Shown piece by piece: positions 43,991 through 50,177 of a stretch of 64,000 nt of DNA. The DNA is taken from contig JABFRT010000030.1 in NCBI GenBank assembly GCA_013141015.1, positions 1-64,000 on the forward strand, written 5' to 3'. Position 1 is the stretch's first letter, and every line of letters starts with the position of its first letter. The translations under genes and the position numbers were made by a program. The stretch comes from Hyphomicrobium sp. Its GTDB lineage: Bacteria; Pseudomonadota; Alphaproteobacteria; Rhizobiales; Hyphomicrobiaceae. The notes beneath the pieces were generated by a model. It did no database searches. It was not told where the DNA came from and saw only the letters and a program-made list of their open reading frames with translations.

Positions 43991-44620
43991 CTACGGCTCG
44001 GGCTTTATCTCAGCCACCGGCTGGCCAATTTCCTGCCAGGCGTCTGTGCCTTCGGAGAACCACAGCACGTTGGCATAGCCGTAAGTCAGCGCGCGCTTGG
44101 CGGCGTTCCAACTCATCCAGCAATTGCGCAAGCAAAAGAACACCAGCGGTTTTGATTTGTCGCCGCCGCTGAGGCGTTCGAGATTGCTTTTAAAGTATGA
44201 TTCCGCTTCCGCCGACAGCACGCCATAACCGGTGTTCGCCAGCCACTTGGCGTTCTCAATCGAGAAGTGCTGCGGCTCGCGCCAGACGGTGCTGGCCGGA
44301 AGGTTCGGCGGTTTTGGCGCATGCGGATAAACATCGATGAACACAGCCGAGCCCGCTGACCATAGCTTGGAGGCATCGTCCGCTGAGAGCACCTTGGCAC
44401 CCCTCAGCGTCGCCGGTACGGGCTTGCGATAGTCGTCGGTCCGGTACGTTTCAGGCTCGGTGACAGTTTCCGCTTTCTGCCCCGGATCAACGGCTTCCGC
44501 CGCGACTGGTGCTGTTGTGGCGAGCAGCGGGATAATCACGGCGCAAGCGATGCCCAGCGCACACAAATCGAACAGCCGGCGGCGCAGACGCCAAGCATCG
44601 TCCATCGCTGCAAAACCCAT
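43991..44620 (-). CDS. PQQ-dependent catabolism-associated CxxCW-motif protein (rhodanese-like)
   Basis: 'KPLVFFCLRNCWMSWNAAKRALTYGYANVLWFSEGTDAWQEIG' contains CLRNCW. Confidence 0.9.
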   Translation of the reverse strand: MGFAAMDDAWRLRRRLFDLCALGIACAVIIPLLATTAPVAAEAVDPGQKAETVTEPETYRTDDYRKPVPATLRGAKVLSADDASKLWSAGSAVFIDVYPHAPKPPNLPASTVWREPQHFSIENAKWLANTGYGVLSAEAESYFKSNLERLSGGDKSKPLVFFCLRNCWMSWNAAKRALTYGYANVLWFSEGTDAWQEIGQPVAEIKPEP

Positions 44621-45516
44621 CAGCGCGCCGCCGCGGCTGGTGCCATTGGCGCGCCACCAGTAGCGGCTGCAGCTTGGCGCGGCTCCTTGATCAGATCGAC
44701 CGATAGATCGTCTTCGACCATCACCGGTACGCCGTAGTCGAGCAGCACCTTGTCGATGTCGCCGCGGCGGCGGGCGATGATTTCGTTGAGCTGGCGCTTC
44801 CAGGCGTCATCACCGTTGCGCACGCCCATGGTGATGCGGAACGCAATCTTGTTCTTCGCCGCTTCTTTCAGCAACGGCACAACCACAAGATCCGGGCTGG
44901 TCTGCTTGGCCCAGTATGCGGCGATCGGACCCCAGTTCACGCCAAAGTCAATTTCACCGGACAGTATGTCCTTCATCATATCGGCGGCCGGGTTGTCGAA
45001 ACGCCGGTCGGTCATCATCCGATAGCCTTTGACCTGGCTCATCAGTCCGTATTTGGCGGCCAGCGTTCCGCCCGCCGAGCCCTGCACGACGCCAGCCTTC
45101 TTGCCCTGCAACTTGGGATCGCCCAGCGTTTCGACGCCGTCAAACCCTGCGCCCTTTTTGTAGATCAGCACTGACGTCGAGCGGTAAATCGAATTGGTGT
45201 TGAGCACCATGTCATCGCCCTGTCCCCAGCCGATCACCAGATCGCACTTTTTGGCGAATAACGTCATGCGGATAAATCCGGTGGCTTTGGGGAACCACGT
45301 GTAGACGACTGGCACTTTCAAATCGTCGCCGATGATGTCAGCGATCTTGTTCTCAAAGCCCTCGCGCTTTTCATTCGAGAACGGCAAATCGGCCGGATCC
45401 GAGCACACGCGCAACTGCTTGCGATTAACGAGATCGGCCTTCGGTGCGTCGGCAGCGGAAGCCGCGAAATTGAGGCCGGCGAGCGCGACCAGAGCACTGA
45501 CAAGAACTTTCTTCAT
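44620..45516 (-). CDS. xoxJ: Quinoprotein dehydrogenase-associated periplasmic binding protein (XoxJ-like)
   Basis: 'LRVCSDPADLPFSNEKREGFENKIADIIGDDLKVPVVYTWFPKATGFIRMTLFAKKCDLVIGW'. Confidence 0.9.
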   Translation of the reverse strand: MKKVLVSALVALAGLNFAASAADAPKADLVNRKQLRVCSDPADLPFSNEKREGFENKIADIIGDDLKVPVVYTWFPKATGFIRMTLFAKKCDLVIGWGQGDDMVLNTNSIYRSTSVLIYKKGAGFDGVETLGDPKLQGKKAGVVQGSAGGTLAAKYGLMSQVKGYRMMTDRRFDNPAADMMKDILSGEIDFGVNWGPIAAYWAKQTSPDLVVVPLLKEAAKNKIAFRITMGVRNGDDAWKRQLNEIIARRRGDIDKVLLDYGVPVMVEDDLSVDLIKEPRQAAAATGGAPMAPAAAAR

Positions 45517-45728
45517 TGCGGTTCGGCGCCTTCCAGATTGAGAATGTTGTGGCTGATAGAGCAGCACAGGACTTGGGACCTACTACGGCTGCGGCGCCTA
45601 TTCGACCACTTTTTCCTGAGCTTCCGGGAAAATTTCCGTGATCGTTATGCGGGCTCGCGTGAGCATTGATGCGCTGCGGGCCAAGTTGTGACGCAGAGTT
45701 AATGTTGCGCCCTGCTGCTGGCAGCGAA

Positions 45729-45812: not shown

Positions 45813-46859
45813 CTAGCCGGTGCAGTCGGCGGCGGCCTTCTTCGCTTCCGGCGAGATGTCTTCGCGGCCATTCGGACGCCCAGCCGGCATGCCGGTCTTG
45901 GGGTCAACCATATTATTCGAACGGGCCTTAATGTAGGTGTAGATGTCGTCGAGGTAGCACATGATGTTGCGGTCTTCGCCGAAGGCCGGCATCACGTAGG
46001 TGGTCCCTGCGCGGTTCACTGTGCGGCCGCCGACAACTGTGCCGAAGAATGTTTCATAATCCATCGTCTTCAAGGATTCACCGAGGCCCGGCGCAAAGGA
46101 TGAGCCGAGCGCGTTGGGGCCGTGGCAGACGTGACAAGCATCGTGATAGCGGCGGAAGCCCTGCCATGTGGCCCAATCCACTTTGTAGTCCTTGGTCACG
46201 GCTGGCGTGGGCTTGCCGTCCTTGTCGCGATAGCGGCCATCTTTGAATGCTAAGCCCTGGGTCGTGGCCTGGGCTTGAACTTCTGCGTTGTCGCCAGTGG
46301 CGGCAGGCGCGGCAGCCGGCGCTGCCGCTGGTGCCGGTGTTGCTACCGGAGCGGCAGGTGCCGCTGGAGCGGCCGGTGCTGCAGGTGCTGCAGCGATGGC
46401 ATCCTTCACCGCTTCTTTCGCAGCTTCAACTTTTGGAGCAACAGCGTCCTTCACTTCAGCCGCCTTGTCAGCGACCACCGCAACGGCGTCCTTGGCTGCT
46501 TCCTTTGCCGCTTCGACCTTCGGCGCCGCCGCGTCCTTCGCAGCTTCGAGCTTAGCCACGACCACGTCTTTAGCGTCCGATGCCTTGTCGGCAACATTCG
46601 CGGCTGCATCCTTTACAGCTTCCTTGGCGGCTTCGACCTTAGGCGCCGCGGCCTCTTTCACAGCCGCAACTTTATCCGCGACTTTTCCAGCAACGTCTGC
46701 GGCCTTATCCTTCGCCGCGTCAACCACCGCAGCGGCCTTTTCGCTCGCCGTTGGCGCTGCCGGCGCTTTGTTCGCCGTCTTATCTTCGTTGCACGCACCA
46801 ACGCCCAGCGCCGCGCCTACAGCGAGAACCGCTGCCAATACTTTCAGATCTGCACTCAC
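45813..46859 (-). CDS. XoxG-like cytochrome c fused to an N-terminal lipoprotein signal and Ala/Lys-rich repeat stalk
   Basis: GTG start (AGGAG upstream); lipobox VGAC-N; three 'APKVEAAKEA[VA]KDA' units, then (PAA)n; C-terminal cytochrome with CHVCH, near-identical to 47033-47608. Confidence 0.88.
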   Translation of the reverse strand: MSADLKVLAAVLAVGAALGVGACNEDKTANKAPAAPTASEKAAAVVDAAKDKAADVAGKVADKVAAVKEAAAPKVEAAKEAVKDAAANVADKASDAKDVVVAKLEAAKDAAAPKVEAAKEAAKDAVAVVADKAAEVKDAVAPKVEAAKEAVKDAIAAAPAAPAAPAAPAAPVATPAPAAAPAAAPAATGDNAEVQAQATTQGLAFKDGRYRDKDGKPTPAVTKDYKVDWATWQGFRRYHDACHVCHGPNALGSSFAPGLGESLKTMDYETFFGTVVGGRTVNRAGTTYVMPAFGEDRNIMCYLDDIYTYIKARSNNMVDPKTGMPAGRPNGREDISPEAKKAAADCTG

Positions 46860-46969
46860 GACCGCTCCTGTTGATGTCGATGCCGGCCCCACAGCCATAT
46901 TAGCCTATATAGAACCAAGCTTTGGAATTGACACGGATATTTGGCGTAATCGATGCAGATTTTGCGCCA

Positions 46970-47032: not shown

Positions 47033-47608
47033 TTAACCGGTGCAGTCGGCGGCGGCCTTCTTGGCTTCCGGCGAGATGTCTTCGCGGCCATTCGGACGTC
47101 CGGCTGGCATGCCCGTCTTCGGGTCGGCCATGTTGTTCGAACGCGCTTTGACGTACGTGTAGATGTCGTCGAGGTAACACATGATGTTGCGGTCTTCGCC
47201 AAACGCCGGCATCACGTACTTGGTGCCGCCGCGATCGGCAATGCGGCCGCCGACGACGACGCCGAAGAACGTTTCATAATCCATCGTCTTCAACGAGTCA
47301 CCCAAGCTCGGCGCAAACGTCGAGCCGAGTGCGTTCGGGCCGTGGCAGACATGGCAGGCGTCGTGATAGCGGCGGAAGCCCTGCCACGTTGCCCAATCCA
47401 CTTTGTAGTCCTTGGTTACGGCTGGAGACGGCTTGCCGTCCTTGTCGCGGTAGCGGCCATCTTTGAATGCTAAGCCCTGGGTTGCTGCCTGGGCTTGGAC
47501 TTCGGCGTTGTCGCCAGCGGGTGCCGGATCTGCTGCCGAACTCACTGTGATGCCGATGGCGGCGCAGGCAAGTGCTGCGGCCGCAAATGTGATGCTGAAC
47601 CTTGTCAC
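47033..47608 (-). CDS. xoxG: XoxG-type c-type cytochrome (methanol dehydrogenase electron acceptor)
   Basis: Signal peptide, 'YHDACHVCHGPNALGSTFAPSLGDSLKTMDYETFFGVVVGG...MPAFGEDRNIMCYLDDIYTYVKAR'; immediately downstream of xoxF. Confidence 0.93.
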   Translation of the reverse strand: MTRFSITFAAAALACAAIGITVSSAADPAPAGDNAEVQAQAATQGLAFKDGRYRDKDGKPSPAVTKDYKVDWATWQGFRRYHDACHVCHGPNALGSTFAPSLGDSLKTMDYETFFGVVVGGRIADRGGTKYVMPAFGEDRNIMCYLDDIYTYVKARSNNMADPKTGMPAGRPNGREDISPEAKKAAADCTG

Positions 47609-47830: not shown

Positions 47831-47867
47831 AAAAAAGGACCGGCGCAGGTTTCCCCGCGCCGGCCCC
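47831..47867 (-). terminator. Intrinsic terminator downstream of xoxF
   Basis: Minus strand GGGGCCGGCGCGGGGAAACCTGCGCCGGTCCTTTTTT. Confidence 0.88.
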
Positions 47868-47889: not shown

Positions 47890-49710
47890 TTATGGCAGCG
47901 AGAACACGGTCAGCGAGCCACCGAGGTTGGTGTACTGCTTGAGGCCAGCGTAGCCACCAACAGCGCCCAGACCATCGGTCGGGTTCGTCAGGCCAGCAGC
48001 AAGACCGATACCGGCCCAACCACCAACGCCCGAGAAGACGCCGACGTACTGCTTGCCACCATGCGAGTAGGTCATGGCGTTGCCGATGATGCCCGACGGA
48101 GTGCGGAAGCGGAACAGCTCCTTGCCATCCTTCTGGTCAACAGCTTTGAAGAAGCCTTCGAGCGTGCCGTAGAATGCAACGCCGCCAGCTGTCGTCAGAG
48201 CGCCCGACCATACCGAGAACTGCTCAGGCTTCGACCAGACGATCTTGCCCTTCACGCCATCCCAGGCGATGAAGTTGCCCATGCCGCCATGCGAATCCGG
48301 AGCCGGGAACATGGACAGCGTGGCGCCGACGTATGGCTGACCAGCGGTGTACGAGACCTTGAATGGTTCGTAGTCCATGCAAACGTGGTTCGTCGGAACA
48401 TAGAACAAGCCGGTCAGCGGCGAGTATGCTGCTGGCTGCTGGTCCTTAGAACCGAGAGCTGCCGGGCAGATGCCCTTCGAGTTCACGTCCTGACCGTTGA
48501 GGAATGTCGAGTACTTAGCGACAACCTGCGGACGGCCGTACTGCGGACTCTTCGGATCCATGACGACTTCCGTTGCCCAGTTGACCTTCGGGTCATACTT
48601 CTGAGCGACGAGGAGTTCGCCGGTCGTGCGATCCCATGTGTAGCCGAAGCCGTTACGGTCGAAGTGCGTAGCGGTCTTACGCTTCGTACCACCGAAATCG
48701 AGTTCTGCCAGGATCGGTTCGTTGATGCCGTCATAATCCCATTCATCGAATGGGGTCATCTGGTAGGCCCACTTGGCAACGCCGGTGTCGACGTCACGAG
48801 CAAACATGGTCATCGACCACTTCTGGTCGATCTGCTTGCCATCGGGTCCAGCGCGCTGTGCCGGGTTCCAGGTCGATGGGTTGCCCGAACCGTAGTAGAA
48901 CAGGTTCAGTTCTGCGTCGTAGGCCATATAGCCCCACGTTGAACCGCCACCGATCTTCCACTGATCGCCATTCCAGGTCTTCAAGGACGAGTCCTTGCCG
49001 ACCGGCTTGCCGAGCGACATGGTCTTTTCCGGGTCCATCAAGATGTCGGAATCCGGGCCCATCGAGTAGGCGCGCCAGACTTTCTTACCCGAGTTGATGT
49101 CGTATGCCGTCACGTGGCAGCGAACGCCGAATTCTGCGCCCGAAACGCCGATGACAACCTTATCCTTCATGACGAGCGGAGCGCCTGTGCCCGTTTCGCC
49201 CTTCTTAGGATCAGCGTTGACAGCCTTCCAGAGTTCCTTGCCGGTCTTTGCATCGAGTGCAACGAGCGACGTGTCGGCCTGGTGAAGGAAGATCTTGCCT
49301 TCTGCGTACTGAACGCCACGGTTGACCGTGTCACAGCACATAACCGGGATAACCGACGGATCCTGCTTCGGCTCGTACTTCCAGATGATCTTGTTGTCAT
49401 CCTTCAGGTTGAGAGCGAACACGATGTTCGGGAATGCCGAGTGGAGATACATGGTATCGCCAATCACGAGCGGGCTGCCTTCGTGACCACGAAGAACGCC
49501 GGTCGAGAACGTCCAAGCAACCTTCATGCTGCCGACGTTTGCGGTCGTGATTTGGTCGAGCTTCGAATAACGAGTACCTGCGTAGTCACCGGACTGGATG
49601 GCCCAGTTTGCCGGATCGGCAGCCAGCTTTGCGACGTCCGCGTTCGCCCAAACAGGCGACGTAAACGCTGCAGATGCCAACAGACCGCATGCGATTGCAC
49701 TTTTGCGCAT
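47890..49710 (-). CDS. xoxF: Lanthanide-dependent methanol dehydrogenase XoxF (PQQ)
   Basis: Eight-bladed quinoprotein; '[15 protein letters not shown]' carries the extra XoxF Asp (MxaF has Ala); vicinal Cys '[18 protein letters not shown]'. Confidence 0.97.
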
Positions 49711-50177
49711 CGCGCTTCCTCCATTTTGAGTATTGTCTTGCCACGCTTGCAAGCTGATCAGATCGCCACCCTCGCCCTCGCCTTCGAGTTCAGGTTTGCG
49801 GGATTATTTCCCGTCTTCCCTGCCCGGCTAAACTAGGCTTCACACTTTCGTGTTGAACCCGGTAGTTCTCGTGATCGCGCCGCATGTAGTCACTTTTTTT
49901 TCCTTTCCGCAACCGGAACTCGGTAATGTTTTCTAAGCAAATCAAATAGGACAGCGCCTCTGACCCAAAACGAGCCAGGTTTTACGGTGCAATTTTGCGC
50001 TGCACAAAAAATGGTGCGATGCACGACTAGTTGCGGCGGGCTGTCGCATTTTTGGTCTTTGGTAGGGGGATTGGGAATGTTTGCCTCACAGAGGGCTCTC
50101 GTTTTCGTGATGAGCACCTTGGTCGTAGGCACTTTTGCCCATGTAAGAGTCGTTATGAGACGAAGGTGCGGAGCACG

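Follow-up and report, generated by a model that had tools for sequence, protein, structure and literature searches.

Genes and features of the xox locus

The window, a stretch of 64,000 nucleotides from Hyphomicrobium sp., carries on its minus strand, in this order, xoxF, a soluble xoxG, a second xoxG whose product is predicted to be tethered (xoxG2), xoxJ and a gene for a CXXCW protein (Table 1). The WDYDG motif found in the xoxF product is expected of lanthanide methanol dehydrogenases. In the same genome, an ordinary MxaG belongs to a WDYAG-type cluster; since this MxaG is plain and soluble, with neither lipobox nor stalk, the predicted tethering is confined to the xox genes. Two more WDYDG-type dehydrogenase frames, one of them at a contig end, lie elsewhere in the genome (L169, 12500-13279 and neighbouring frames), and the same contig encodes a cytochrome with a Pro-Ala linker.

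Table 1. Positions of genes and sequence features at the xox locus of the window
Feature	Position	Strand	Remarks
CXXCW motif protein	43991..44620	-	
xoxJ-like substrate-binding protein	44620..45567	-	
Predicted tethered xoxG (xoxG2), 348 aa	45813..46859	-	GTG start
XoxG cytochrome domain, residues 189-348	45816..46295	-	
Haem site CHVCH, residues 242-246	46122..46136	-	
Pro-Ala hinge, residues 158-188	46296..46388	-	low pLDDT
Helical Ala/Lys/Asp/Glu stalk, residues 38-157	46389..46748	-	
APKVEAAKEA unit 3, residues 141-150	46410..46439	-	
APKVEAAKEA unit 2, residues 112-121	46497..46526	-	
APKVEAAKEA unit 1, residues 72-81	46617..46646	-	
Cys23, predicted lipidation site	46791..46793	-	lipobox rule and conservation in nine proteins of the genus
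XoxG2 signal peptide, residues 1-22	46794..46859	-	
Ribosome-binding site AGGAG	46865..46869	-	five bases before the xoxG2 GTG; related genes are preceded by comparable sites
Soluble xoxG, 191 aa, no stalk	47033..47608	-	
Conserved intergenic hairpin (xoxF/soluble xoxG)	47836..47867	-	
xoxF with WDYDG motif	47890..49752	-	best PDB matches are XoxF structures

The hairpin between xoxF and the soluble xoxG is very strong, with a folding energy of about -31 kcal/mol. Of 31 family loci, 29 have it within about 30 bases past the stop codon of xoxF, with compensatory changes in its outer stem; L118 and L119, whose xoxF has diverged, lack it. The xoxF-xoxG intergenic region gave no Rfam match. Perhaps the hairpin acts as an incomplete terminator, or as a barrier to processing, and keeps XoxF above XoxG.

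The frame, coordinates, GTG start and AGGAG site of xoxG2 are all as the original prediction described. All of 22 related xoxG genes start at a GTG that is preceded, at a comparable distance, by a GAGGA- or GGGGA-type site, which supports this start. The upstream ATG at 46896-46898 would be possible as a start, but is outside the one common to the relatives. The signal VSADLKVLAAVLAVGAALGVGAC, ending in GVGAC-N, fits the lipobox rule used, a sequence pattern (Cys at 15-35, basic residue in the first seven), with Cys23 and Lys6, which agrees with the predicted lipobox ALGVGAC-N. Its n-region, MSADLK, is only weakly basic, which counts against a lipoprotein signal. Profile searches showed that the genome encodes LspA (110.1 bits against a cut-off of 73.95) and LolA, while a match to the LolC/E model stayed below its cut-off.

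The cytochrome part of XoxG2 is complete and XoxG-like with a CHVCH site, as had been proposed. It scores 162.8 bits against TIGR03874, a narrow margin over the cut-off of 161.75 (soluble paralog, 163.7 bits), and matches the XoxG structure 6onq with an E value of 4e-41. In a Foldseek search, 6onq was also the sole PDB hit with an E value below 0.001 (4e-9). C242, C245, M290, P291, C301 and C346, representing the CXXCH motif, a Met-Pro pair and two further cysteines, are invariant in 23 sequences.

Structure of the stalk

Between the signal and the cytochrome, the original prediction placed about 130 residues of Ala/Lys/Glu repeats. We found an amphipathic helical region there, with a length of about 120 residues, containing the three predicted repeat units at residues 72, 112 and 141 and followed by the predicted Pro-Ala hinge. 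The stalk is 48-64% identical to itself at offsets of 29, 40 and 69 residues. A recent duplication of the unit at the DNA level was rejected, as Tandem Repeats Finder gives only 9- and 12-base runs. The helical periodicity peaks at 3.62 residues and none of 500 shuffles reached this peak, so that the pattern exceeds what composition would give.

The proposal that the stalk is a periplasm-spanning rod in the manner of Braun lipoprotein is not supported, although the lipid anchor and spacer of the same prediction are well supported by sequence comparison. The power at 3.5 residues is 0.7 as opposed to 16.2 at 3.62, so that a heptad coiled coil was rejected and an Lpp-like coil is unsupported. 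In the AlphaFold model the stalk is predicted as three helices broken near prolines (block pLDDT 64-77), and the other tethered XoxGs mostly have Pro/Ala/Glu spacers lacking the helix repeat. If fully extended, the 118 helical residues would reach about 18 nm.

An amphipathic stalk might instead lie on the membrane surface or form a compact bundle, like an apolipoprotein, and keep the cytochrome near the membrane. The helical wheel is class-A-like, with V/L/I on one side and Asp/Glu opposite at 178 degrees, which speaks for such an arrangement, as do the three modelled helices. The matches in this direction are weak: a Pfam apolipoprotein hit far below its cut-off and Foldseek hits of the stalk to helical-bundle proteins with E values of 0.4 or worse. 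However, the hydrophobic moment of the stalk is low and no window along it passes the lipid-binding threshold used. The model of the G011 ortholog predicts one long helix of 71 residues and a disordered Pro-Ala stretch. Moreover, the spacer is helical only in the window protein and in G011, whereas the Pro/Ala/Glu spacers of the other lipidated XoxGs would be unable to lie on a membrane or to bundle. We therefore regard this arrangement as unlikely.

Predicted lipidated XoxGs in relatives and their soluble paralogs

Searches extended over the genus, family, order, class and phylum, and 46 XoxGs of the Hyphomicrobiaceae were compared. Twelve of them have a lipobox, nine belonging to Hyphomicrobium and the other three to a second Hyphomicrobiaceae genus, and all twelve carry a long spacer, with the first haem cysteine at residue 167-311. 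In 33 of the 34 non-lipidated XoxGs this cysteine is found at residue 75-133 (p 4e-7 in a Mann-Whitney test without correction for kinship). Five of five independent tree contrasts agree on the association of lipobox and spacer; the sign test (p 0.0625) falls short of significance because only five contrasts are available. The length of the spacer and the anchor are kept, but not the sequence, as a tether would require. Taken together, the sequences argue strongly that a lipid-anchored XoxG on a long spacer is often found in Hyphomicrobium.

The longest spacer seen, about 248 residues of tandem Ala/Pro/Glu repeats, belongs to the tethered XoxG of G113 (L104, 4303-5604). The 34th non-lipidated XoxG, in G036 (L136, 628-1587), has an Ala/Lys helical stalk and a hydrophobic N-terminus devoid of Cys, which might stay in place as a transmembrane anchor.

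It could be argued that the lipobox is incidental, with signal peptidase I cutting the signal, the protein being soluble and the stalk a neutral low-complexity expansion. In its favour, the genome often combines proteins with Pro-Ala linkers or with signals that end in Ala-rich stretches, a cytochrome on contig C8 being one case, and GVGAC is not the commonest lipobox motif. Against this, the nine proteins of the genus share Cys23 although their signals have diverged, and the cysteine is independently placed in a second genus, always together with a long spacer. Near relatives that lack the cysteine have short spacers: in a nested soluble group of the genus, GAAAC-QEQ has become GAAAA-KEQ, with the Cys replaced and the spacer short. 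An incidental lipobox hence seems quite improbable to us.

Several near-complete genomes (G001, G003, G019 and G021) encode no XoxG other than the lipidated one, and the cultured strain H. facile DSM 1565 (G001) appears to carry only the tethered form. The 100% complete genome G019 has no MxaG above the cut-off, which leaves the lipidated XoxG as its only recognised methanol dehydrogenase cytochrome partner. No MxaG match was obtained in G013 (92% complete). On the other hand, tethering is dispensable, given that numerous close relatives rely on a soluble XoxG. G014 has its tethered XoxG at the main locus and a second xoxF-xoxG locus with a soluble XoxG (L127, 7082-9718).

XoxG relatives were also found in the wider samples of 398, 395 and 399 genomes from the order, class and phylum. 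No lipobox with a stalk was seen beyond the family in 20 fetched stretches, which had been picked mostly for their long frames; as the reading covered long-frame XoxGs, lipidated forms without a stalk may exist there. Nor did we find a tethered XoxG described in the literature searched, which took in few subscription journals. The original claim that none has been described is therefore not contradicted, although other genomes encode such a protein as well.

XoxG2 and the soluble XoxG of the window are 85% identical over the matched part, and the second genus of the family has the same tandem of a soluble and a tethered copy. The tandem arrangement with an intact soluble copy could indicate that xoxG2 is a redundant duplicate heading for loss, having no role of its own. 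However, the window pair has a Ks of 0.64 and a Ka of 0.046, and a Ka/Ks of about 0.07 indicates that both copies are maintained by purifying selection, which speaks against decay. As G011 carries an orthologous tethered copy and the tethered form is the sole XoxG in several genomes, we find such a fate very improbable. At one tandem, in G111 (L106, 5594-7225), the soluble copy leaves the frame once past the haem region, and a short stretch of the cytochrome is missing from the tethered copy, which may be an assembly error or real damage.

Within a genome, the Ks of the pair is 0.16-0.64 in four of five pairs, compared with 0.63-1.72 between genomes of a genus; the G113 pair (Ks 1.13) is no closer than copies from different species. 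In G000, G011 and G110, the cytochrome domains of the soluble and the tethered copy are each other's closest relatives. The AU test rejected uniting the tethered copies, at p 0.0002 when G000 was joined with G011 and at p 0.007 when the three copies from the second genus were joined. The lipoprotein N-termini, in contrast, match across genomes, with 16 of 34 residues between G000 and G011 and 18-23 residues for G113, G110 and G111, while soluble and tethered N-termini in these genera match at only 6-11 residues. These sequence patterns suggest gene conversion of the cytochrome part, giving one cytochrome with two address labels, which would explain both the clustering of the domains by genome and the matching of the N-termini across genomes. 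Repeated duplication, in which similar N-termini were regained, is less likely. A single origin of the lipidated form was rejected on the cytochrome tree (p 4e-8); with gene conversion, this tree would be a poor guide to the history of the N-terminus.

Proposed role and comparison with known systems

Judging from the sequences and from the known analogues, xoxG2 probably encodes a lipid-anchored, spacer-borne electron acceptor for XoxF, comparable to cytochrome c_y and Laz. After export, the signal would be cut before Cys23 and the cysteine acylated. The spacer, made of helices and a Pro-Ala hinge here and of Pro-Ala-Glu in most relatives, could then swing the cytochrome from a membrane to periplasmic XoxF. 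The anchored XoxG would take electrons from XoxF and, staying inside the envelope, hand them on to a further cytochrome or an oxidase, and the adjacent soluble XoxG would play the same role as a diffusing carrier. The pair may therefore represent a single cytochrome sent to two addresses, with gene conversion probably keeping the copies alike. Opinion is evenly balanced, in our judgement, on the broader proposition that lanthanide methanol oxidation in the Hyphomicrobiaceae runs via a spacer-borne, lipid-anchored cytochrome, with two addresses for one domain, gene conversion, repeated gain and loss, and selection on anchoring itself.

Display of the anchored cytochrome from the outer membrane, where it would exchange electrons outside the inner-membrane chain, is very improbable: by the E. 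coli rule, lipoproteins without Asp at +2 are sorted to the outer membrane, and the residues found here (Asn in XoxG2; Gln, Trp or Gly in other lipidated XoxGs) and the presence of LolA are compatible with this, but the rule may not be that of this host, and Laz, which comes nearest among the analogues, is oriented towards the periplasm (PMC6277709).

The cytochrome domain and fold of XoxG2 are those of XoxG from Methylorubrum extorquens AM1 (6onq). The 196-residue chain of 6onq matches XoxG2 only from residue 160 of the latter, which leaves the lipobox and the helical stalk without an equivalent in 6onq. MxaG (cytochrome c_L, TIGR03872), the acceptor of the calcium methanol dehydrogenase, is encoded elsewhere in the same genome and belongs to another family. 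XoxG is usually viewed as a freely diffusing periplasmic cytochrome. If this lineage of methylotrophs anchors it, the electron flow from the lanthanide methanol dehydrogenase would have a spatial organisation that has not yet been considered, and the natural soluble, tethered and paired XoxGs would offer a ready-made comparison of what the tethering of a carrier buys.

Outside the methanol dehydrogenases, the Braun lipoprotein Lpp has a lipid anchor followed by an Ala/Lys-rich helix, in which it resembles XoxG2. Lpp, however, is a heptad coiled coil, whereas the stalk of XoxG2 has a period of 3.62 residues. The spacer of Laz from Neisseria is rich in Ala, Glu and Pro. Laz is a lipoprotein electron carrier that is located on the outer membrane (PMC6277709). 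It differs from XoxG2 in being a copper protein instead of a cytochrome and in serving an unrelated pathway. Cytochrome c_y of Rhodobacter capsulatus consists of a 30-residue transmembrane helix, a 69-residue linker and a 100-residue cytochrome; through the linker, the haem domain can get to its partners, the length of the linker affects which partner is served quickly, and shortening it does not stop cytochrome c_y from serving the oxidase (PMC7876108). It is a different cytochrome, held by a transmembrane helix and not by a lipid, and it acts between bc1 and the oxidase or the reaction centre, not from a dehydrogenase. Nevertheless, it shares with XoxG2 the membrane anchor, the long linker and the electron carrier, and by its sequence XoxG2 combines such an anchor, linker and redox domain in one chain.
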